64,000 bases of DNA, taken from the NCBI GenBank assembly GCA_026645575.1, contig JAPKMW010000019.1, forward strand, positions 62,001 to 126,000, written 5' to 3'. A program made the position numbers and the translations under genes. The notes under the pieces were generated by a model. The model saw only the letters and a list, made by a program, of their open reading frames with translations. It was not told where the DNA came from and ran no database searches. Below are positions 39,042 through 62,823 of the stretch, piece by piece (within the stretch, counting starts at the first letter, position 1; each line of letters starts with the position of its first letter). The DNA comes from Caldilineaceae bacterium (GTDB lineage: Bacteria; Chloroflexota; Anaerolineae; Caldilineales; Caldilineaceae).

Positions 39042-39539
39042 ATGCAAGCTGATTTGCTCGCCCCGGCCCTTGCTACCTTGGATTTAGCCGCCTTTATGCG
39101 TGAAGCCCTCTATGAGGCCGAACAGGCCGGTTTAGCCGGCGAACTACCCATCGGCGCGGTAGTGGTGATCGACGGTCAGATTATCGCTCGTGGGCGCGCC
39201 CGACACAACGAACAACGCAATCAACTCTGTCACGCCGAACTCAATGCGCTACTCGCCGGTGGGGAAGCGCTGTGGGAACACCATGACCGCGCAATTCTTT
39301 TCACCAGCGCCGAGCCTTGCCCCCTCTGTTTGGGCGCAGCCGTGATGGCGGATGTCCCCCATATTATCTTTGCAGCCCATGATGAAGTGGTCCATTCGCG
39401 CAAGACCGTCGCCGAAAATCCCTATGTCCGTCGGCATATTCAAAGCTATTACGGCGGCGTCCTTGAAGCGGAAGCCCATACGATTATGGCGCGTTTTAAT
39501 CCGACGCTGCTCCGGCGCGTCACAACGGATCACGAATAA
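39042..39539 (+). CDS. Nucleoside deaminase (TadA/guanine deaminase-like)
   Basis: The 165-residue protein has the zinc-dependent deaminase motifs: CHAELNAL near 66 (His ligand and catalytic Glu) and EPCPLCLGA near 91 (two Cys ligands). The N-terminal MREALYEAEQAGLAGELPIGAVVV is typical of TadA, but the C-terminal part is longer and lacks the tRNA-binding signature I would expect, so a free-base or nucleoside deaminase is possible. AAAGGA precedes ATG 39,042. It is 10 bp from lcdH and probably cotranscribed. Confidence 0.88.
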   Translation: MQADLLAPALATLDLAAFMREALYEAEQAGLAGELPIGAVVVIDGQIIARGRARHNEQRNQLCHAELNALLAGGEALWEHHDRAILFTSAEPCPLCLGAAVMADVPHIIFAAHDEVVHSRKTVAENPYVRRHIQSYYGGVLEAEAHTIMARFNPTLLRRVTTDHE

Positions 39540-39549
39540 AGGAACACCC

Positions 39550-40527
39550 ATGACTCGTCCTCTTCCTACGGGAGTGCAATACGTAGGCATTATCGGCACC
39601 GGTGTCATCGGCGGCGGTTGGGCTGCTCACTTTTTACGCAACGGCATGGATGTCGTCGCCTATGATCCCGCTCCTGGCGCTGAAGACAAATTGCGCCGCC
39701 GCATTGCCGATGTCTGGCCAGCGTTGACGCGGTTGGGGCTGCACGCCGATGCCAGCCCGGATCGGTTGACCTTTGCGCCCAGCTTGGCTACCGCGGTGGC
39801 TGAGGCCGAATTCGTTCAAGAAAATGCGCCCGAACGCGCCCAGATCAAGATCGACACCCTGGCCGCCATCGACGCTGCCACACCGGTCGATACGGTGATC
39901 GCCAGCAGCACCTCTGGCTACGCCATGACCATGATGGCGCAAAATTGTCGTCACCCGGAGCGCTGTGTCGTCGCCCATCCCTTTAACCCGCCCTATCTCA
40001 TGCCGGTGGTGGAAGTGGTGGCGGGGGAAAAGACCGCGCCGGAAGCACACGATTGGGCCGTCGCTTTTTATCGCGCTACCGGCAAACAACCGCTCAAACT
40101 GACCAAAGAGATCCCCGGTTTTGTTGCGGATCGACTCATGGAAGCAATTTGGCGCGAAGCGTTGCACATGATCAACAACGACATGGCGACTGTGGAGGAG
40201 ATCGACGCCGCCATCCGTTACGGCCCCGGCCTCCGTTGGGCGCTCATGGGACCGTTGACGGTGCTGCACCTTGGCGGTGGCGAGGGGGGCATGGCTCATC
40301 TCATCCACCAATTTGGCCCTTCGCTCAAAGAGCCGTGGACCTTCTTGGAGGCGCCCGAACTGACCGATGAACTGGCGCAAAAGGTGATCGATGGCTGCGC
40401 TAATCTGACCCAAGGCTTTTCGATCCGCGACTTGGAGCAGGAGCGGGATGATCTGCTGATCAAGCTGTTAGCGATGCTCAAGGAAAGTCGTCTCTGGCAC
40501 TTGGGGGAGAACACAACAACGGATTGA
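39550..40527 (+). CDS. lcdH: L-carnitine dehydrogenase (3-hydroxyacyl-CoA dehydrogenase fold)
   Basis: The start chosen is ATG 39,550 (AAAGGA upstream); the frame runs back into the deaminase gene. The 325-residue protein has GTGVIGGGW as the NAD site near 17, VAYDPAPGAEDKLRRRI, QENAPERAQIK near 93, STSGYAMTMM and HPFNPPYLMPVVEVV near 140, and PGFVADRLMEAIWREALHM near 190. These match L-carnitine dehydrogenases more closely than 3-hydroxybutyryl-CoA dehydrogenases. The reaction would be carnitine to 3-dehydrocarnitine. A gamma-butyrobetaine dioxygenase gene follows, which supports the assignment. Confidence 0.85.
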   Translation: MTRPLPTGVQYVGIIGTGVIGGGWAAHFLRNGMDVVAYDPAPGAEDKLRRRIADVWPALTRLGLHADASPDRLTFAPSLATAVAEAEFVQENAPERAQIKIDTLAAIDAATPVDTVIASSTSGYAMTMMAQNCRHPERCVVAHPFNPPYLMPVVEVVAGEKTAPEAHDWAVAFYRATGKQPLKLTKEIPGFVADRLMEAIWREALHMINNDMATVEEIDAAIRYGPGLRWALMGPLTVLHLGGGEGGMAHLIHQFGPSLKEPWTFLEAPELTDELAQKVIDGCANLTQGFSIRDLEQERDDLLIKLLAMLKESRLWHLGENTTTD

Positions 40528-40544
40528 GGAGGCAACTGATTTTG

Positions 40545-40685
40545 TAACTACTAGGACAATGTTCAATTAGAAGCAGACCTCCGGGAAGGGGTCAGGAACA
40601 ATCGCCAAATTTGAGAAAACCTTTGACCCCTTCCCGGAGGTCTGCTGGTGCCCCGATCGCGAATCTAACATTGTCGTAGTCGTTA
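40545..40685. repeat. Nested inverted repeats with perfect 23-bp inner arms
   Basis: Inner arms 40,572-40,594 and 40,624-40,646 (core GACCTCCGGGAAGGGGTC) are exact complements. Outer arms 40,545-40,563 and 40,667-40,685 (CTAGGACAATGTT type) match at 17 of 19 positions. The CCGGGAAGG core also occurs at 9289-9347. Confidence 0.8.
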
Positions 40686-40795
40686 CCTGATTTTTACCTT
40701 TAGGCCACAATGGCCCATAGCGTCGCCCTACCTAGCCAACAAATCTGTTGCTACCCAAATCTGTTGTAGTACCACGGGACAACCAAATAACCAAA

Positions 40796-40874
40796 GGGTG
40801 CGTCCCATTTTGGGGAATTGCAAATAGGGCTATCGAAAGCGCCCGGTGCAATTCCCCAACTGTGGTACGCACCC
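40796..40874 (+). promoter_or_regulatory. Leader hairpin upstream of the gamma-butyrobetaine dioxygenase
   Basis: GGGTGCGTCCCA-TTTTGGGGAATTGCA (40,796-40,822) faces TGCAATTCCCCAACTGTGG-ACGCACCC (40,847-40,874). It ends 18 nt before ATG 40,893. It may be another dispersed repeat or a leader structure. Confidence 0.5.
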
Positions 40875-40892
40875 ATAACCAAAGGACAATCC

Positions 40893-42080
40893 ATGTCACC
40901 CAACGCCATTCCCACGCCTGACTTTGAAAGCTATGCCATGACCTGCGCCGTGACTGCCGCCACGATAGACCAGGAAACGGTCAACGTCACCTGGGCCGAC
41001 GGCCAACGAAGCCGCTTTCACTTTCTCTGGCTGCGCGACAACTGCGCCTGCGAACAGTGTATCGACAGCGGTTCCCATGAACGGGTCTATAGCATCCTTG
41101 ACATACCGGCTGATCTACAGGCGCGCACGGCAACGGTTGGCAACTTGGGCGGTTTGCAAGTCACTTGGTCGGATGGTCATCATAGCCACTATCATCCCGG
41201 CTGGCTACGCCACTTTGACTATGCCAACGGCAGCCGACCGGTGGAAAGCTGGCCGGTGGCGACGTGGCATCGCTCCTTAGAACAGAACTTGCCGCTCTTT
41301 ACGGCGGATGCGGTTCTGAATGATGAAGATGCGCACTATGACTTTCTCTGCGCCATTCGCCGCTTGGGGATCGCCCTTGTCACTGGTGTGCCGAAAGATG
41401 GCGCCACTTTTGAACGGCTGTCGAGTAAGGCTGGTCTGCTGCGCGATATGAACTGGGGCAAAATCTTTGAGATTGTCACCGACCCGCAGGGCGAGTATGT
41501 CGCCAATCGCAACCACCCGCTCGATGCTCATTCGGACGCCGCCACGCGCGAACACATGCCGGGCCTGCAAATCTTCCAGTGTGTGGAAAATAGCTCGGAG
41601 GGGGGCGAAAGTTTTTGGGTCGATGGCTTCTATTTGGCCGACCTGCTGCGTCGTGACCATCCTGACGCGTGGCACTTGTTGTCCACTGTCCCCTGGGAGC
41701 AGGCCAACCGTTCCGGCGGCACCCATTACCGCTGGAATGCGCCGATCTTTGACCTGGATCGTTACGGTAATGTCACCGCCGTGCGCGACACCACTTGGCT
41801 GCGCGAACCCTTGCGCGCCGATTTTGATTTGACACCCCGCCTCTACGCCGCTTACCGGCTTTATTCGCAACTCAAAGCGGATCGGGCGAATCAAGTGGAG
41901 CGCAAACTGGTAGAAGGGGATGTCGCCTTTGTCAACAACCGGCGTGTGCTACATGGGCGACGAGGGTTTAACAGCAGCAGTGGTCTCCGCCATATTCGCA
42001 CCTGTTACGGTGAGTTGGAAGAGCTACATTCCTCGATCCGTATGATTGAACGAGTACGCCTGGCGCGGCAAGTTCGGTAA
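40893..42080 (+). CDS. Gamma-butyrobetaine dioxygenase-like (DUF971 + TauD/TfdA)
   Basis: The 395-residue protein has the N-terminal DUF971-type zinc domain (LWLRDNCACEQCIDSGSHERV near 46) and a C-terminal TauD-like 2-oxoglutarate dioxygenase domain. The iron ligands are visible: His213 and Asp215 in DAHSDAATREHMPG, and His354 in NNRRVLHGRRGF. This two-domain order is that of gamma-butyrobetaine and trimethyllysine hydroxylases. With the carnitine dehydrogenase gene upstream, it probably makes carnitine from gamma-butyrobetaine. AAAGGA precedes ATG 40,893, preferred over an earlier in-frame ATG inside the hairpin. Confidence 0.87.
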   Translation: MSPNAIPTPDFESYAMTCAVTAATIDQETVNVTWADGQRSRFHFLWLRDNCACEQCIDSGSHERVYSILDIPADLQARTATVGNLGGLQVTWSDGHHSHYHPGWLRHFDYANGSRPVESWPVATWHRSLEQNLPLFTADAVLNDEDAHYDFLCAIRRLGIALVTGVPKDGATFERLSSKAGLLRDMNWGKIFEIVTDPQGEYVANRNHPLDAHSDAATREHMPGLQIFQCVENSSEGGESFWVDGFYLADLLRRDHPDAWHLLSTVPWEQANRSGGTHYRWNAPIFDLDRYGNVTAVRDTTWLREPLRADFDLTPRLYAAYRLYSQLKADRANQVERKLVEGDVAFVNNRRVLHGRRGFNSSSGLRHIRTCYGELEELHSSIRMIERVRLARQVR

Positions 42081-48774: not shown

Positions 48775-50334
48775 CTAGCGTAACTGCTCATAAAGCGTTC
48801 GTCGCATGATTTCTTCGGTAAGGCGCGGCCAAAGTTGGCCGGCTAATGCCGTGGCGCGGTGGGCAAAGCCGGGGATCAAGTGTCGTTGGCGTCGCTGTAA
48901 AGCTATGGCAATCTGGCGCGCTAACACTTCCGGCGCCATCCGCCGTTCTTCGCGGCGATTGTCCGGACTATAGCGACGGGCATGGGCGGTGCGTGTTGGG
49001 CCAGGATAGATTGTCAGTACATGTTTGCCTTGTAGCGCCAGTGCAATTGCCAAACTACGTGCATATGACGCCAGCCCATCTTTGGTTGCGGCATAGACAG
49101 TTGCGCCCGGATAGCTGACAAAGTGGGAGAGCGATGAGACAAATGCCAACGAACTTTGCGGCGTTAACAGCCCGCGTTGTAACAAGCCGGCAGTGAGGAG
49201 GAGGGGCGCCGTCAGGTTCAAATCGATGACCTTGCACTGACGCTCGATGTCGCTGGTGACAAAAGGGCCAACGGCGCTAATGCCGGCATTATGAATAAAA
49301 ATGTCAATGGGCGGGCGTGTGGTTAACCGTTCCAAAATGTTATTCATCTTGGGCAACGCCGTCAGATCTGCCAGCAGAAAGCGAATGCGTCCTCCGGCGT
49401 TGATCAAGTCGGCCTGGGTTTGGGTCGCCCGATCTACATCCATATCAATGCCGGTGACAGTGGCGCCACTGCTGGTAAATTGTTGCGCCAGCGCTCGCCC
49501 AATCCCGTCAGCAGCGCCGGTGATGACGCAATGGCGCGCTTTGCCGGTTGACAAGGTGGCAAGATGACTGGGTGACTGGGTGACTGGGTGATGGCGTAAT
49601 GCGACTAAACGATCTATGAGAGCAGGAAAGCGGCGACCAGCGGTATAGAGCATGGCGTTGGGCAGCCCCAACGTGGTTGCGCGATAGTTAGCGACCGTGG
49701 CATGGACAATTTGTTGGGCGATAGCGTCCGGCGTAGGAAAGCGATCCCAGCCCAGCCGTTGCAGGTCGGCGCCGCTTTTTTCATGCATGTTGGTGCGCGT
49801 GGCGCCGGGGCGGATGATCTGGGCGCGAACTGGGCTGCGGTCGGCGCGCAGTTCGATCTGCCAATTGCGCACAAAACTGTCGAGCGCCGCTTTGGTCGCC
49901 GTATAGACAGCGTAACCAGGGCCAGGTAAGCCGGCGACCACCGAACTGACAAAGACAAATTTCCCCGCCGCCCGTTCCACCAACGGATAGAGAGCGTGGC
50001 TCAACATAATCGGCGCCCGCAAATTGACATTCACTAGTTGGCGAATATTTTCTTCGCCTTGTGTTTCCACTGGACCGACATACCCTACCGCCGCATTGTG
50101 GATGACCAGGTCTAAATGGGCAACTCTATTTTCGTGTAGCCAGAATGAGATCTGCTTCGCACTGTCCAGGTTCGCTAAATCGGCCTGACAGTAGCAGTCG
50201 GGCGCGAAGAAAGTGTTGTCCAATAATTCGATTGGCCGACGACCAATGAGGATCAGGCGCGCCCCCTGTTGTTGGTACTGTCGCGCCAGCGCAAGGCCGA
50301 TGCCATCGGTGGCTCCTGTGATTACAACATTCAT
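48775..50334 (-). CDS. Fused double short-chain dehydrogenase
   Basis: The 519-residue protein has two SDR domains in tandem. Domain 1 (about 1-225): TGATDGIG at the start, HNAAVGYVG near 81, SSVVAG near 130, YTATKAA near 144. Domain 2 (about 270-500): TGAADGIG, HNAGISAVG, SSLSHF and YAATKDG. Both have complete Ser-Tyr-Lys sets. The linker LRHHPVTQSPSHLATL is encoded by an 8-nt tandem repeat (TGACTGGG at 49,563-49,594). ATG 50,334 is the likely start. Each domain resembles DltE/YqjQ-like SDRs; substrates are unknown. Confidence 0.88.
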   Translation of the reverse strand: MNVVITGATDGIGLALARQYQQQGARLILIGRRPIELLDNTFFAPDCYCQADLANLDSAKQISFWLHENRVAHLDLVIHNAAVGYVGPVETQGEENIRQLVNVNLRAPIMLSHALYPLVERAAGKFVFVSSVVAGLPGPGYAVYTATKAALDSFVRNWQIELRADRSPVRAQIIRPGATRTNMHEKSGADLQRLGWDRFPTPDAIAQQIVHATVANYRATTLGLPNAMLYTAGRRFPALIDRLVALRHHPVTQSPSHLATLSTGKARHCVITGAADGIGRALAQQFTSSGATVTGIDMDVDRATQTQADLINAGGRIRFLLADLTALPKMNNILERLTTRPPIDIFIHNAGISAVGPFVTSDIERQCKVIDLNLTAPLLLTAGLLQRGLLTPQSSLAFVSSLSHFVSYPGATVYAATKDGLASYARSLAIALALQGKHVLTIYPGPTRTAHARRYSPDNRREERRMAPEVLARQIAIALQRRQRHLIPGFAHRATALAGQLWPRLTEEIMRRTLYEQLR

Positions 50335-50361
50335 CCGTTGTCGATGCACCCAATCTTTGTT

Positions 50362-50877: not shown

Positions 50878-52299
50878 TTAGACTTTGGTTAATTCAGGAG
50901 CCAACTGCTCCTCGGTTGGCTCCGCTCAACAATACCACGGTTCGCTCAGACGGGGCGCATAGGCGCTGTGGCGTTGATGGCGGGTGGGTGGTTCGGTTAA
51001 ACGCAAACCACCGCTGGCGTTTTGCGCTTCTTGCGCCAGTCGCCAGATGTTCATGAAAATGTCGCTCCGACTTTGCCCCGCTTTTTCTGCCCGTTGAACC
51101 AAGGCAATGACATCCTGTTGTAACTGATCAACGCGTGGATCAGGGTGCTGCCAGGGATAGACCAGCGCTGCTTCGTCAAAAGGATGAATCAACGCCTGAA
51201 TACTCGGCAATTCCAGCAAACGTGAAGAGGCGGTAATCAGCAGACGAATCGCATATTGAATGGGCGGTACATGCTCCACCAACCCTAACTCCCCAATGAC
51301 GGTTAACAAGTCACAATAGCCGGCGACACTGATCCAGGGATTGAAGGCGACAAAGGTTGGATTGAGCGTTAAGCCGATTGCTTGACAGTGTTGGGCTGCG
51401 GCCATAAAGTCGGCGCGTGTATGACCTTTGTCCAAGAAGCGCAAAATCTGATCATCCACCGACTCTACGGCGCTGGTGACAAAAAGGCAACCGGTGTCGC
51501 GCAGAATGGGCAACTGCTCGGCCTGTTGTAGTAAATGCTCCACCTTGATCGTCACATCATAGGTTAAGTCAGGAAATTCAGCATGTAGCGCCTGAACAAG
51601 CGGCAAGGCATGACCGGGGCCGTTGAAAAAGTCGGGATCGCCAAAGGTGATGTGTTGTGCGCCCGCCGCCACCTGGTTGCGAATATCGGCCAACACCACA
51701 TCTCGTTGGACAATCCGAAATTGACCATCATAGACTGGCACAATCGGGCAGTGGCGACAGCGATGTTTGCAGCCGCGCGTCGCTTCGGTGTAGCCAACGG
51801 TACGCTGCTTGCCGTCACCCAGATCGAGAAACGCATAACGCTCTAGAGCCGGCAGGTCGTGTCGATCGGGTGTTTGAAATTGTTGCCGCCGTAGGTCGAT
51901 GGCCGGCTTGCGGTCAATTACCGTTGCCGCGTTTGCTTGCAATTGTTTTGCCAGCGCCACCAGTCCCGTTTCAAACTCGCCCCCCAAGATACTCTGAACG
52001 CCTAATTTGCGCAAGAAGGCTTCATTGAGCGGTGCATAGAGGCCATAGCAACAGAGATGGGCGCGGGGATTCCATCGTTTCACCCGCTCAATAATGGGTG
52101 CGGCAATGCGCGTCGCCGTGTGCATCGGCAGGTAGAAGGCCACCAGATCCGCCGCATTGACAACGTCAGCTTCCAACGCATTGATCGCCAGGTCACAACA
52201 AGTAACTTGCGCCCCCACCTGTCGCAACCAAGCGGCCGGCGAGGCCAGACCAAAGGGCTGCCTGCCTAATTCATAGGTGGAAAGTAAGACAACGTTCAT
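50878..52299 (-). CDS. CUAEP-tail radical SAM selenoprotein (B12-binding-like N-terminus)
   Basis: The N-terminal ~140 residues resemble a cobalamin-binding-type domain (VVLLSTYELGRQPFGLASPAAWL). The radical SAM cluster motif is TRGCKHRCRHC, with Cys177, Cys181 and Cys184; FGDPDFFNG near 222 and KVEHLL follow. A conventional reading stops at TGA 50,926-50,928 after SEPWYC. The next codons read Ala-Glu-Pro and the frame stays open 15 codons to TAA 50,878-50,880. C-[TGA]-A-E-P is the tail that names the CUAEP/CCAEP-tail radical SAM (seleno)protein family, so residue 458 is probably selenocysteine and the protein has 473 residues. A stem-loop follows the TGA. Function is not established. No SD is visible at ATG 52,299. 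Confidence 0.87.
50897..50928 (-). promoter_or_regulatory. Candidate bacterial SECIS element at an in-frame TGA
   Basis: On the coding strand, TGA (50,928-50,926) is followed by GC and a perfect 9-bp stem GGAGCCAAC/GTTGGCTCC (50,923-50,915 with 50,905-50,897) around the loop CGAGGAGCA. A G among the first loop bases fits bacterial SECIS elements. The loop starts 11 nt after the TGA, somewhat closer than I recall as typical. A terminator is less likely since no U-run follows. Confidence 0.7.
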
Positions 52300-57616: not shown

Positions 57617-57950
57617 AGTCGGCATCAGGTAACTGAAAGTTAACCATCTTTAAATGGTCAGCTAAACGCGTTTAGTGCTTTTGTATAGAGCTTCCGCATG
57701 GTGAAAGCTTGAATTAGCCTAAATCACCCCCTTGAATTGATCCCTGCATTGTGTTACCGTTATGCGCGCCGATTGCTGACTATGGTCCAGCAAACAAAAA
57801 GGGACGCCACAAGTCACCGCTTGTGGCGTCCCTGCCGGCAAAAATTCACTTGGTGGCAAATTTCTTCCAGACGCTCTGATCATAGCATCAACGCGCCTGG
57901 GTGGCAATTCAACGCGCGTTTTTTTGCTTACGAACGGAGCAAGACATCGA
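57617..57950. other. 334-bp region upstream of the siderophore operon
   Basis: No gene is seen. The main feature is a perfect 14-bp hairpin, AGGGACGCCACAAG (57,800-57,813) with 57,820-57,833 and a 6-nt loop; its AAAAAGGG side could act as a terminator on the minus strand or as a leader structure. I do not see a convincing Fur box. Confidence 0.6.
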
Positions 57951-58982
57951 ATGTGTAAAGAATTCAACCCCATCTACCTGACCCTTGTTATGGCGCTGGT
58001 GCTTACTGCCTGTATCGCACCAGTTGCACCAAGCGTCGTTCCTGCCACGGAAGTAATTTCAACGGCAACAGATGCCGGCTTCCCCGTCACCCTTGACCAC
58101 AACTATGGCAGCACCACCATCACCGCCAAGCCCGAACGGGTTGTCACCGTTGGCTTGGTTGAACAGGATGCACTGTTGGCCTTGGGTATTGTGCCGGTTG
58201 GCACCACCGAATGGTTTGGCGGCTACCCCGGTTCGATCTGGCCCTGGGCGCAGGATGAACTGCAAGCGCTGGGTGGCGCGATCCCCGAAGCGGTCGGTGG
58301 CGAGTCGATCAATTTTGAGAAGATCGCCGCCCTACAACCCGATCTGATCCTGGCGCTGTATAGCGGTCTTACCCAAGAACAATACGACATCTTGACCCAA
58401 ATCGCACCCACAGTGGCCCAACCCGCCGACACGGTGGACTATGGCATTTCCTGGCAGGCATTGACCTTGACCGTTGGCAAAGCGGTTGGGCAGGCCGCCG
58501 AAGCCCAAATGCTGATTGACGAAATCCAGGCGCAGTTCACCCAAGTGCAGAGCGCACATCCGGAGTTTGTCGGGGCGACGGCGGCAGCGGCGATGGCCTG
58601 GCAGGGCATCTATCTCTATGGGCCGCAGGATATTCGCAGCCGCCTGTTGACCGAATTGGGCTTTGTGCTACCGACGGGCATTGAAGAGATTACCGGGTCT
58701 ACCTTTGGCGGCAACCTGAGTATGGAACGCGCTGACCTGCTGAATGTGGATGTGATTGTCTGGCTCGACCCTCAGGAAGCCGAAGGGGAATTAGGTGGAC
58801 CCGTCTATCAGGCGCTGCCTGTCCACACCGAAGGGCGCGAGGTGCTTCTCCGCAGCATTGGGGATCCCGTGGGCGGCGCCACCTCCTTTATCACTGTCCT
58901 CAGCTTACCCTATTTGTTGGACAATCTAACGCCCATGTTGGTGGCCGCCCTCGATGGCGACCCGGCGACTACGGTGGACTAA
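57951..58982 (+). CDS. Ferric-siderophore ABC substrate-binding lipoprotein (first)
   Basis: The 343-residue product has a signal with lipobox VLTACIAP near 20 and the periplasmic-binding-protein-type II fold of the FecB/FhuD group: [20 protein letters not shown] near 61, [14 protein letters not shown] near 125, and [20 protein letters not shown] near 240. It binds an iron-siderophore outside the membrane. ATG 57,951 is the only start that keeps the full signal. The ATPase gene begins 4 bp after its stop. Confidence 0.92.
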
Positions 58983-58986
58983 AGCT

Positions 58987-59874
<888 letters not shown>

Positions 59875-60910
59875 CACCGCTACCGTGCCAACCGCCGTTG
59901 TCGAAAAAGCCACAGTTGGCGCAATCGGCGCCACCACTGAATGCGAAACCGGCTTCCGCCGCTTTGATCACGAATTGCTCGCCACCGATCCGGTCTGTAT
60001 TCCCGAAAACCCGCAGCGCATTATTGCCCTGGATGTGGCATCCGTTGAGTTGACGATGATGACCGACAAAACCTTGTTAGCAACCAGCAACTGGATTCTC
60101 AGCGAGATGCCGCTCATGTCACCCCAGTTTGCCGATAGACTGGCAACCGTTGAAGATGTGGGCTATCCCGCCAATCTGGAAAAGATTCTACTGCTGAAGC
60201 CGGATCTGATTCTAGCCGTGGGCGGGACCAACGTGGGTGACACCATTGATGTGGAACAAGCGTTGCAGATCGCACCAGTCGTCGTCGCTGATCCGATTAT
60301 CTATGAGGATTGGAAGTTGGGAACCCAGTTTTGGAGCGAAGTACTCAATGTGACTGAGTTTTACAGTGACATGGAGCAGAACTATTTCGCCCGTATTGCG
60401 GAGTTGCAAACGGCACTGGGCAATCCGGCTGATCTGGAAATCTCGGTGATCGGCGCCAGCACCTATGGCATCTATCTGTGGATGCCCGACACGCCGCCCG
60501 GTCATATCCTGCGTGATGTCGGCCTATCGCGCCCGGAAGCACAGGCGTTGATCGGGGAAGAAGCAGTGGCGCGTTACGAAGCCAGCCAATATGTCCTGAT
60601 CTCTGAGGAACGCCTGGATCTGGTGGATGGCGATGCCGTCTTCTATTTCACCTATTTCTCCAGTGATGCCGAGACTGCCGACAAAGAACAGGCGTTTCTC
60701 GCCGCATTGGCCCAGAAGCCGCTTTGGCAAGCGCTCAACGCTGTCAAGGCGGGCAATGCCTTTCAAGTACCCGGTTATTGGTGGCGCTCACAAACCTACC
60801 TGTTAGCCAACAAAGTGCTTGATGATCTCTTTGCCAGCCTGACCGACACCACAGCAACGACGCCGGTTTTGGTCGAGCCATAAGCTTTTGCAAGGAATTA
60901 GGAAGATCCC

Positions 60911-61768
60911 ATGAACCTTCAGCCCTCTGTTCACCCCCTATACCAAACCTTTGTACATAGTCATCAACTCAGCCCCTACATTGCGGCGCGTTTGGGGACA
61001 CCAACGGCAGCGGGATGGTTGACGCCCGCCGCAATGTTCGCAGCGGATTCACCGTATCTAGCGACTTTGGTCAGCGCCACGCAAAAGCGGCTGCACACCA
61101 CGGCAGTCAACACCATTGGCGGCGCCTTGCTCCAGGAGTATCAATGGCCGCTGATTGCCACCGCGGTCGCCTGCTTCCTGCTGGATCGGCGCGTGCCGGA
61201 TCTGCAACGGACCAATGTGCGGCTCCGCCTACCAGCCGTAGAACAGGTCGAAGGCGCTGGCACGGATCCCACTGCGATTGCTTACACCAGTGGCCGTTTT
61301 GCCGCCCTGCCCACCGATCCGGCGGCTGACCACCCCGATGCCCTCATCCTGGGCGATGAGACTGCCCTGCGCGACTATCTGCGAACTGGATTGGAAAGTC
61401 ACTTCGCTTGGGTGATTGCCGCGTTGAGCGCCGCCGTCGGCTGTAATGAGCGCGGACTATGGCTCTCCGTCACCGATCGCATCGCTAGTACACTGGCCTG
61501 GCTGATGCAGATGCAGAATGGACAAAGTTGTCTCACCTGTATCGACCGGGAAGCAGACAAGCTGTTGCGGGTGGCCGGTTCGCCGCTCTATCACAAAACG
61601 ATCAGCTTTTTTGAACTCACCTACAAGGAGCGGAAGCATGTCTATTCCGACCGCGTCACCTGTTGTTACTGGTACAAGACCGACGGCGGCGACTATTGCA
61701 GCACCTGTCCACACCGGACGAAGGAAGATCGCAATGGCTGTTTGCTCAAGCACCTGGCAAAGGAATGA
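60911..61768 (+). CDS. FhuF-like siderophore-iron reductase
   Basis: The 285-residue protein ends with the FhuF-type [2Fe-2S] motif: [20 protein letters not shown], i.e. C-C-x10-C-x2-C, near 257. Proteins of this type reduce ferric iron bound to siderophores in the cytoplasm and release it. The body ([29 protein letters not shown]) fits the family. Its place between the binding proteins and permeases of a siderophore operon supports the role. The stop overlaps the next start (ATGA). Confidence 0.88.
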
Positions 61769-62823
61769 CAAGAAACCGAATGACCACCATAACCATCACA
61801 CAACCCACAACTACTTTCCGGTTTGTCCGCTCGCGCCCTCTTTTACTGCTGGGACTGCTAGCCGGCGTGGGCGTGCTGCTCTTAGCGATGATGAGCAGCA
61901 TTGCCTTTGGCGCGGCGGATATTGCCCCCGCTGACGTATGGGCGGCTCTTTTCAACTTTGACCCTTCCGCGACTGACCATCTGATCATCCGCACCTTGCG
62001 CGTGCCGCGGGCGGCGGTGGCGGCACTGGTGGGCGCTTCCTTGGCCGTGGCCGGGGCGATTATGCAAGGGTTGACGCGCAATCCACTGGGCGATCCCGGC
62101 ATTCTGGGCATCAATACCGGGGCGGCGCTGGGCGTGGTGGCGGCGGTCTTTTTTCTCAACATTGGCTCGCTTGCGCTTTACGCGCTGTTTGCCTTTATCG
62201 GTGCGCTGTTGACGGCGCTGGCGGTTTATGGCCTCGGTTCCCTGGGGCGGGGCGGCCCGACCCCGCTCAAGTTGACCATTGCCGGTGCAGCGTTGACGGC
62301 GCTGCTTTCGTCCTTTACCACCGGCGTCCTGATTCTCAACCAGCGCACACTGGAGGAGGTGCGCTTCTGGCTGGCTGGTTCGGTGGCGGGGCGCGACTTG
62401 ACGTTGCTGTTGCAGGTTGCGCCCTATCTGCTGGGCGGGTTACTCCTGGCACTGGCGTTGGGGCGGCAGATTACCACAATTTCGTTAGGTGAGGATGTCG
62501 CCAAAGGCTTGGGGCAACGCACGGGGTGGGTGAAAGGCTTATCGGCGGTGGCCGTGGTACTGCTGGCCGGTGGTTCAGTGGCGGTGGCCGGACCGATTGG
62601 CTTTATCGGGCTGGTCATTCCCCATGTGGTGCGCTTTCTGGTGGGGGTGGATTATCGCTGGATTCTGCCCTATGTGGCGCTGTTGGGGGCCAGCTTTCTC
62701 CTCTTCTCCGATGTAGCGGCGCGGTTGATTTTGCGCCCAATGGAGTTGCCCGTCGGCGTGATGACCGCGCTGATAGGCGGGCCGTTTTTTGTCTACTTGG
62801 TGCGCTGGCGGGTGAAGCGGTGA
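61765..62823 (+). CDS. FecCD-type iron ABC permease (first)
   Basis: The 352-residue protein has about nine to ten helices and the FecCD hallmarks: [44 protein letters not shown] near 73, and a later [19 protein letters not shown] near 270. ATG 61,765 overlaps the FhuF stop; ATG 61,780 is also possible. It would pair with the second permease at 63,783, from which it is separated by two antisense genes. Confidence 0.93.

Follow-up and report, generated by a model that had tools for sequence, protein, structure and literature searches.

The closest named relative of the protein considered here is ArsL, the RCCLKC-tail protein of arsinothricin biosynthesis, which is described as transferring the 3-amino-3-carboxypropyl group of S-adenosylmethionine (SAM) to As(III) (PMC8552651; review PMC12159101). 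Radical SAM enzymes that are also selenoproteins have been described, and a 2026 review (PMC13188914) includes TIGR04167 (rSAM_SeCys) and TrsS (NF045646) among them. The gene in question lies on the minus strand of a 64,000-nt stretch of DNA from a Caldilineaceae bacterium (contig JAPKMW010000019.1, positions 62,001 to 126,000; the whole stretch analysed is called the window). It carries an in-frame TGA close to its end that, with high confidence, encodes selenocysteine (Sec, U). Its product is a member of NF040546, the CUAEP/CCAEP-tail radical SAM (seleno)protein family of NCBIfam, a family with a name but without an assigned function. TIGR04167 and TrsS share the combination of radical SAM chemistry and Sec with it as members of other families, and neither matches the window protein at E 0.01. 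Searches of the open literature by family name and accession (subscription journals were not covered) found no paper on NF040546, and the accession is absent from the main text of PMC13188914. The features of the locus, in positions of the window, are the following.

50878..52299, minus strand: predicted gene of a CUAEP-tail radical SAM selenoprotein, with 473 codons, one of them an in-frame TGA, before the TAA stop; assigned from the translation with TGA as U, NF040546 and PF04055.
50926..50928, minus strand: TGA codon of residue 458, predicted selenocysteine, from Cys or TGA in relatives, a conserved hairpin and the tracking of SelB.
50929..50931, minus strand: TGT codon of Cys457, first residue of the Cys-Sec pair; Cys or TGA in 46 of 46 aligned sequences, with TGA in the clade of UU and UC tails.
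50878..50925, minus strand: tail read past the TGA, AEPTEEQLAPELTKV, with its TAA stop; A-E-P is kept while its codons change synonymously.
51748..51771, minus strand: radical SAM motif Cys177-x3-Cys181-x2-Cys184; invariant in the 46 aligned sequences and common to five RCCLKC-tail proteins.
50896..50912, minus strand: conserved apical hairpin, likely the selenocysteine insertion sequence (SECIS); 6-bp stem (50912-50907 with 50901-50896), loop AGUUG, supported by covariation, a spacing of 19 nt and -8.5 kcal/mol.
50897..50923, minus strand: 9-bp stem with a 9-nt loop, an alternative fold that is not conserved (covariation 0.116 against 0.110 in shuffles).

The open reading frame (ORF) at 52299-50926 (minus strand) ends in LSEPWYC followed by the TGA, after which the frame continues for 15 codons (AEPTEEQLAPELTKV), Ala-Glu-Pro first, to a TAA at 50880-50878. 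An earlier note, made by a model from the sequence alone, had described this arrangement and had named the CUAEP/CCAEP family, and both statements hold. With the TGA translated, the protein matches NF040546 over its whole length at 636.8 bits (cut-off 500), and it has both the C-U-A-E-P tail (Cys457-TGA458-Ala-Glu-Pro) and the CX3CX2C motif, which places it in the family on all three sequence tests. Cut at the TGA it reaches 614.8 bits, such that the Sec reading gains 22 bits. The radical SAM domain PF04055 scores 44.6 bits, above its gathering score of 29.5. The note's description of the enzyme as "B12-like" is weak by comparison, as the B12-binding domain PF02310, the mark of membership among cobalamin-dependent radical SAM proteins, stays at 19.3 bits, below its gathering score of 32.1. 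Within 46 aligned full-length sequences (window included) C177, C181 and C184 do not vary, and the same holds for E453, W455, E460, P461 and the two positions of the pair, which are always Cys or TGA. The best structural match of the AlphaFold model (mean predicted local distance difference test score 92.2; 77 for residues 451-460) is the radical SAM diol dehydratase AprD4 (6fd2; template modelling score 0.65-0.70), which was also the sole match to a solved structure by sequence search (E 0.0015). AprD4 differs from the window protein in sequence, with 18% identity and a score of 20.0 bits against NF033070 (cut-off 500).

The TGA at 50928-50926 is read as Sec458, giving a 473-residue product of a gene at 52299-50878 (minus strand), because the A-E-P following it is conserved, relatives have Cys in its place, a downstream hairpin covaries and SelB is found in 29 of 29 Sec-tail genomes among a first set of 50 genomes of relatives. 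This reading had been put forward in the earlier note and has gained support from each of these lines. A scan of named genome contigs provided at least 80 loci of relatives; among the matches listed, the pair of 80 relatives is Cys-TGA in 53, Cys-Cys in 21, TGA-Cys in three and TGA-TGA in three (the tail matched the search pattern in 74 of the 80 loci, and all 80 were viewed; one of the 53 Cys-TGA tails reads UAEA and one is interrupted by masked bases after the TGA). The 21 Cys-Cys relatives are Cys homologues at the TGA position, as is sought of bacterial selenoproteins, and are the CCAEP forms that the note had predicted. Once three repeats of the same locus and two identical tails were removed, 78 distinct Cys-TGA tails were counted; the TGA is followed by a codon for Ala (76) or Ser (2), then one for Glu (78), then one for Pro (77). 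These positions use all four Ala codons (GCG, GCC, GCA, GCT), both Glu codons (GAG, GAA) and all four Pro codons (CCC, CCG, CCA, CCT), and the sequence beyond the TGA looks translated because A-E-P is conserved through this synonymous change.

The same form recurs on a broad scale. In the Chloroflexi class of genome G001, the nearest relative, a homologue at E 1e-60 occurs in 35 of 298 genomes; 34 of the 35 matches contain one TGA, and the 35th stops at residue 412 with a tail that likewise has a TGA. CUAEP is present in 92 of 220 genomes in the Acidobacteriota class of genome G027. The annotated CUAEP gene of a cultured bacterium, Thermomicrobium roseum DSM 5159, likewise has Cys-TGA-Ala-Glu-Pro. 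An order-level search for a closer genome brought up proteins of no more than 65% and 68% identity. Were the TGA a true stop, the product would have 457 residues, and the AEP tail and the hairpin would be untranslated or due to chance. Annotation follows that course in 115 of 120 listed protein-database homologues, one of which is the window's own, that end at the Cys of WYC or WFC (the other five have a CCAEP tail); the truncated protein still exceeds the family cut-off, and hairpins are common after TGA stops in these genomes. Nevertheless, A-E-P persists after the TGA with synonymous codon change, the Cys relatives continue into the same tail, the hairpin covaries and the pair is Cys-Cys in all eight SelB-less genomes of the first set, which together make a true stop very unlikely. 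Annotation that ends at the TGA very likely loses the most conserved tail of the family, a truncation the note had expected of gene callers, and a widespread family is routinely cut just before its most conserved residues.

In the window organism, a hairpin downstream of the TGA would help to insert Sec at residue 458. The earlier note proposed a perfect 9-bp stem-loop for this part of the tail. The stem is present as described, with GGAGCCAAC (50923-50915) perfectly complementary to GTTGGCTCC (50905-50897) and a start 2 nt after the TGA; it does not covary, and a shorter inner hairpin that competes with it for one 3' arm is the likely SECIS. The rules for bacterial SECIS elements given in PMC13188914 are a loop of 3-9 nt, a stem of 4-16 bp, a G at one of the first two positions of the loop, a distance of 16-37 nt from the UGA and a minimum free energy of -7.5 kcal/mol or lower. 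The inner hairpin, with its 6-bp stem, the loop AGUUG, a spacing of 19 nt and an energy of -8.5 kcal/mol, agrees with these published rules.

Covariation was assessed in 54 of the 78 distinct CU tails, chosen for spread, in a gap-free alignment with 500 shuffles. For the inner hairpin, 87.0% of cells are paired against 69.4% when shuffled, covariation is 0.454 against 0.166 and double-change cells number 60 against 20.2, and none of the 500 shuffles is as high on any of the three, all of which fall when the partner strand is slid along. Two other measures were not above the shuffles, namely pairs with a double change (311 of 500 as high) and further pair types (339 of 500 as high). The 9-bp stem has a covariation of 0.116 against 0.110 (141 of 500 shuffles as high) and was rejected as the SECIS because covariation is absent and because its loop begins too near the UGA, at 11 nt where the published range is 16-37 nt. 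Folding energies of tail positions 12-38 average -10.11 kcal/mol in the 78 CU tails versus -4.95 in 20 Cys-Cys tails (Mann-Whitney p 3.7e-8 for all Sec tails against Cys-Cys tails), and the CU tails average -7.8 once their synonymous codons are shuffled, none of 200 shuffles being as low as the real tails. At -4 kcal/mol or lower, a threshold of our own choice, the model hairpin is found in 64 of 78 CU, 7 of 7 UU/UC and 6 of 20 Cys-Cys tails; at -7.5 or lower the corresponding counts are 41 of 78, 1 of 7 and 2 of 20.

Several of the folding results weigh against the Sec reading and the inner hairpin. The Cys-Cys tails too are slightly more structured than codon shuffling would give (8 of 200 shuffles as low), the model hairpin follows ordinary TGA stops in 58 of 281 cases at -4 kcal/mol and 22 of 281 at -7.5, and the -7.5 rule applied to the 45 nt after the TGA hardly discriminates at all (78 of 78 CU tails, 17 of 20 Cys-Cys tails and 216 of 281 stops). 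In isolation the 45-nt window RNA also favours the 9-bp stem, at -16.2 kcal/mol, over the inner hairpin, whose stretch reaches -9.7. Much of the 5' arm of the 9-bp stem would lie hidden under a ribosome whose A site holds the UGA.

The earlier note took a genome without selB as counting against Sec, and in the relatives SelB does go with the TGA. In the genomes of 50 of the 80 relatives (23 CU, 6 UU/UC and 21 Cys-Cys), SelB was over its cut-off in 23 of 23 CU, 6 of 6 UU/UC and 13 of 21 Cys-Cys genomes, and the eight that lack it are each Cys-Cys (29 of 29 Sec-tail against 13 of 21, Fisher p 3.8e-4, kinship ignored). SelD was over its cut-off in 21 of 23, 6 of 6 and 14 of 21 genomes, respectively. 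With 67 candidates scored per genome, a limit that makes misses possible, and a threshold of our own (59 bits or more), tRNA-Sec was called in 17 of 23, 6 of 6 and 9 of 21; the eight SelB-less genomes gave no such match. The machinery is incomplete in places, which tells against Sec: no clear tRNA-Sec appeared in 6 of the 23 CU genomes among the 67 candidates scored in each, and SelB was under its cut-off in three Sec-tail genomes of a second set, G202, G326 and G184, the last two of which hold SelB pieces. In that set SelB was over its cut-off in 16 of 19 Sec-tail genomes (14 of the 17 that were new), and in 43 of 46 when both sets are pooled. Of the 21 CU genomes in which SelD passes its cut-off, 16 have a single in-frame TGA in the SelD gene itself, as do all six UU/UC genomes, and SelD in these genomes is probably a selenoprotein too.

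The survey also bears on a reading of the TGA as some other amino acid, through an altered code or leaky termination. Direct proof of Sec was not found for any family member in the literature covered, which leaves room for this alternative. Against it, TGA is an ordinary stop elsewhere and ends 14 of the 45 mechanical, non-overlapping ORFs in the window that reach 250 residues (the CUAEP ORF counted), Cys occupies the second position of the pair in all 21 Cys-Cys loci and again in three UC loci, and SelB tracks the TGA form. Decoding as anything other than Sec is accordingly regarded as extremely unlikely.

The name of NF040546 covers the CU and CC tails, and the UC and UU tails seen among the relatives fall outside the named motif. 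At four loci from Anaerolineae-type genomes (L009:10001-11401, L018:10001-11416, L028:6197-7591 and L115) the pair is TGA-TGA, followed by the conserved A-E-P and the hairpin, and these codons are predicted to encode a double selenocysteine. The distinct tails examined (three UU and four UC) retain A-E-P and the hairpin. A pattern search of 396 genomes in the class of genome G005 recovered UU in two and UC in four, and a reversed control pattern recovered none. In a tree of 110 CUAEP proteins and four RCCLKC outgroups, built with the pair excluded by a quick search with support from the Shimodaira-Hasegawa-like approximate likelihood ratio test alone, the nine UU and UC tails fall into a single clade (support 98); the five UC tails are a clade nested within it (98), around which the four UU tails are paraphyletic. 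The order CU to UU to UC is simplest because of this nesting, and it suggests that Sec moved one residue towards the N-terminus through a double-Sec stage. Changes to Cys-Cys number at least 6 on strongly supported branches and 12 over the whole tree. Judged from these sequences, the pair would behave as one unit that occurs as CU, CC, UC or UU.

Among the papers listed in a search of the open literature, as far as titles and the openings of abstracts go, there was no report of adjacent or tandem Sec in bacteria. The UC and UU tails, their order and the inner SECIS hairpin are new as far as the searches reach. With the CC, CU, UU and UC series, the contribution of selenium at either position of the pair can be studied in a single enzyme, and neighbouring UGA codons with one hairpin would test the decoding of two consecutive Sec residues by SelB.

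As to function, the next best family model after NF040546 is that of ArsL (NF040542, 291.6 bits), and the two kinds of protein are alike at 29-35% identity. All 5 RCCLKC proteins have 41 positions, the three cluster cysteines among them, in common with 97% or more of 109 CUAEP proteins, and the C-terminal pairs align together when the pair of the relatives is entered as Cys-Cys. ArsL/RCCLKC loci resemble CUAEP loci in carrying an ATP-grasp gene (four of five viewed, from 16 RCCLKC/ArsL records found), although the ArsL-side ATP-grasp proteins are only distantly related to the CUAEP-side ones (82-133 bits). Unlike ArsL, the window protein has Sec and a tail of C-U-A-E-P rather than R-C-C-L-K-C. 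Because ArsL is the closest named relative, the CUAEP enzyme is predicted to act in its manner: it would transfer the SAM-derived 3-amino-3-carboxypropyl group, as ArsL does with arsenic, and the Cys457-Sec458 pair would hold the soft atom that receives it. This transfer, argued by analogy, is put forward tentatively, at less than even chances.

A number of observations speak against such chemistry. The ArsL score lies below the cut-off of 450 and the tail is not the RCCLKC shared by the five proteins compared, which leaves the window protein outside ArsL on both counts; the aligner may match the C-terminal pairs merely because both are terminal; and no arsenic family is among the 25 commonest in 90 scanned co-directional neighbours, from which it follows that the acceptor may differ from arsenic. 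(The neighbour tally scanned 90 of 107 co-directional genes and left out seven under 110 residues and ten more.) In addition, the window has neither an ATP-grasp gene nor a YggX gene, the two partners that recur elsewhere.

An ATP-grasp gene of about 430 residues occurs in 40 of 81 loci (the 80 relatives among the matches listed plus the window), mostly directly downstream, and the protein scanned (L034) combines LAL_C2, an L-amino-acid-ligase domain, with ATP-grasp_4. Eighteen of the 81 loci have a gene of YggX type, for which one member bears the name oxidative damage protection protein (NF003817), and the ATP-grasp gene is present in all 18. Across the 298 genomes of the G001 class, CUAEP is found in 35, the ATP-grasp protein (E 1e-120) in 39 and YggX (PF04362) in 42, with 32 genomes shared by CUAEP and ATP-grasp, 32 by CUAEP and YggX and 30 by all three. 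ATP-grasp is present in 32 of 35 CUAEP genomes versus 7 of 263 others (Fisher 9e-33) and YggX in 32 of 35 versus 10 of 263 (9e-31), in both cases with kinship ignored. A mixed multi-phylum set gave an ATP-grasp match of at least 480 bits in 30 of 35 CUAEP genomes versus 1 of 14 without CUAEP; in the five weaker CUAEP genomes there was no match (G009, G022, G034) or one of 140 (G014) or 295 bits (G025). Among genomes of the G001 class with both genes of a pair, the two lie within 1.5 kilobases in 8 of 32 for CUAEP and YggX, 23 of 36 for ATP-grasp and YggX and 2 of 32 for CUAEP and ATP-grasp, and in 31 of 42 cases YggX adjoins one or the other of its two partners, CUAEP or ATP-grasp. In G001, the nearest relative with a genome (68% identical), the ATP-grasp gene is on another contig and a search for YggX did not find it. 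Presence of YggX was tried as a test outside the Chloroflexota and proved uninformative, as it occurs in 200 of 220 genomes in the Acidobacteriota class of G027; because it is near universal there, adjacency alone is informative in that class.

The co-occurring ATP-grasp and YggX families likely share a pathway with CUAEP, though this is unproven, and the co-occurrence gives a testable pathway hypothesis for the family. It is presented as new here, with the limit that no literature search was made on the co-occurrence itself. In the proposed pathway the L-amino-acid-ligase-type ATP-grasp partner would couple the amino-acid product to another amino acid, and the YggX partner would handle iron. 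A formyltransferase-like gene near the ATP-grasp partner (L129, L130, L131, L132 and L039; under the fmt cut-off where scanned) is possibly a further member.

The prominence of YggX is open to another interpretation, in which the protein is not a biosynthetic transferase and its Cys-Sec pair serves the radical SAM cluster as redox switch or electron relay, acting with YggX in maintenance of iron-sulfur clusters or under oxidative stress. The enrichment of YggX in CUAEP genomes and its adjacency to the CUAEP or ATP-grasp gene favour this, as do NifU-like/NfuA genes, which make up 6 of the 90 co-directional neighbours, and an aconitase-like gene of 896 residues in 15 of 81 loci, its identity judged by eye from sequence. 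The same role would leave the ATP-grasp ligase of 32 of 35 genomes and the conserved residues of ArsL type unexplained, and the YggX counts carry no information in the Acidobacteriota class; it is considered possible and on the doubtful side. The fullest form of the aminocarboxypropyl proposal has CUAEP as the core of an undescribed system with ATP-grasp and YggX that would build a small peptide bearing a soft element, attached to a SAM-derived amino acid, and also has the pair interchangeable, with selenium shifted through a UGA-UGA stage under a single hairpin in one Anaerolineae lineage. Taken with all of its parts, this account is speculative and itself rather unlikely.

Other organometal chemistry, such as the methylation or detoxification of mercury or a similar metal, is brought to mind by two loci. 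In L023 (10363-13039) the order is CUAEP, DUF169, a CpaM-type methyltransferase (244.9 bits against 180) and an HgcAB-like fusion (332.2 against 285), close to mercury methylation proteins, and L008 (11169-13900) has a gene of the DUF169 cluster followed by a methyltransferase and a CdhD/ferredoxin protein at the corresponding places, the fusion being named in L023. The DUF169 gene adjoins CUAEP in six loci. Nonetheless, a CdhD/HgcAB-like domain is found in just 2 of the 90 scanned neighbours (neighbours, not whole loci, being what was scanned), and two scanned proteins upstream of the CUAEP gene of L008 matched no mercury family, which makes this chemistry improbable for the family.

Scans of the window for Rfam families (gathering threshold) and for tRNAs gave no match, and the neighbours of the gene (a short-chain dehydrogenase pair, an epimerase and Tex) are not among the recurrent clusters with CUAEP. 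Two short-chain dehydrogenase domains lie in one protein at 48775-50349, directly downstream of the CUAEP gene and not recurrent in relatives. About 5.6 kilobases upstream of the CUAEP gene start, an iron uptake cluster on the plus strand (57924-62820) comprises Peripla_BP_2, an ABC ATPase, an FhuF-like ferric reductase and a FecCD permease. Elsewhere in the window, carnitine-metabolism-like genes at 39352-42080 encode a 3-hydroxyacyl-CoA dehydrogenase-type protein and a gamma-butyrobetaine hydroxylase-like TauD protein.

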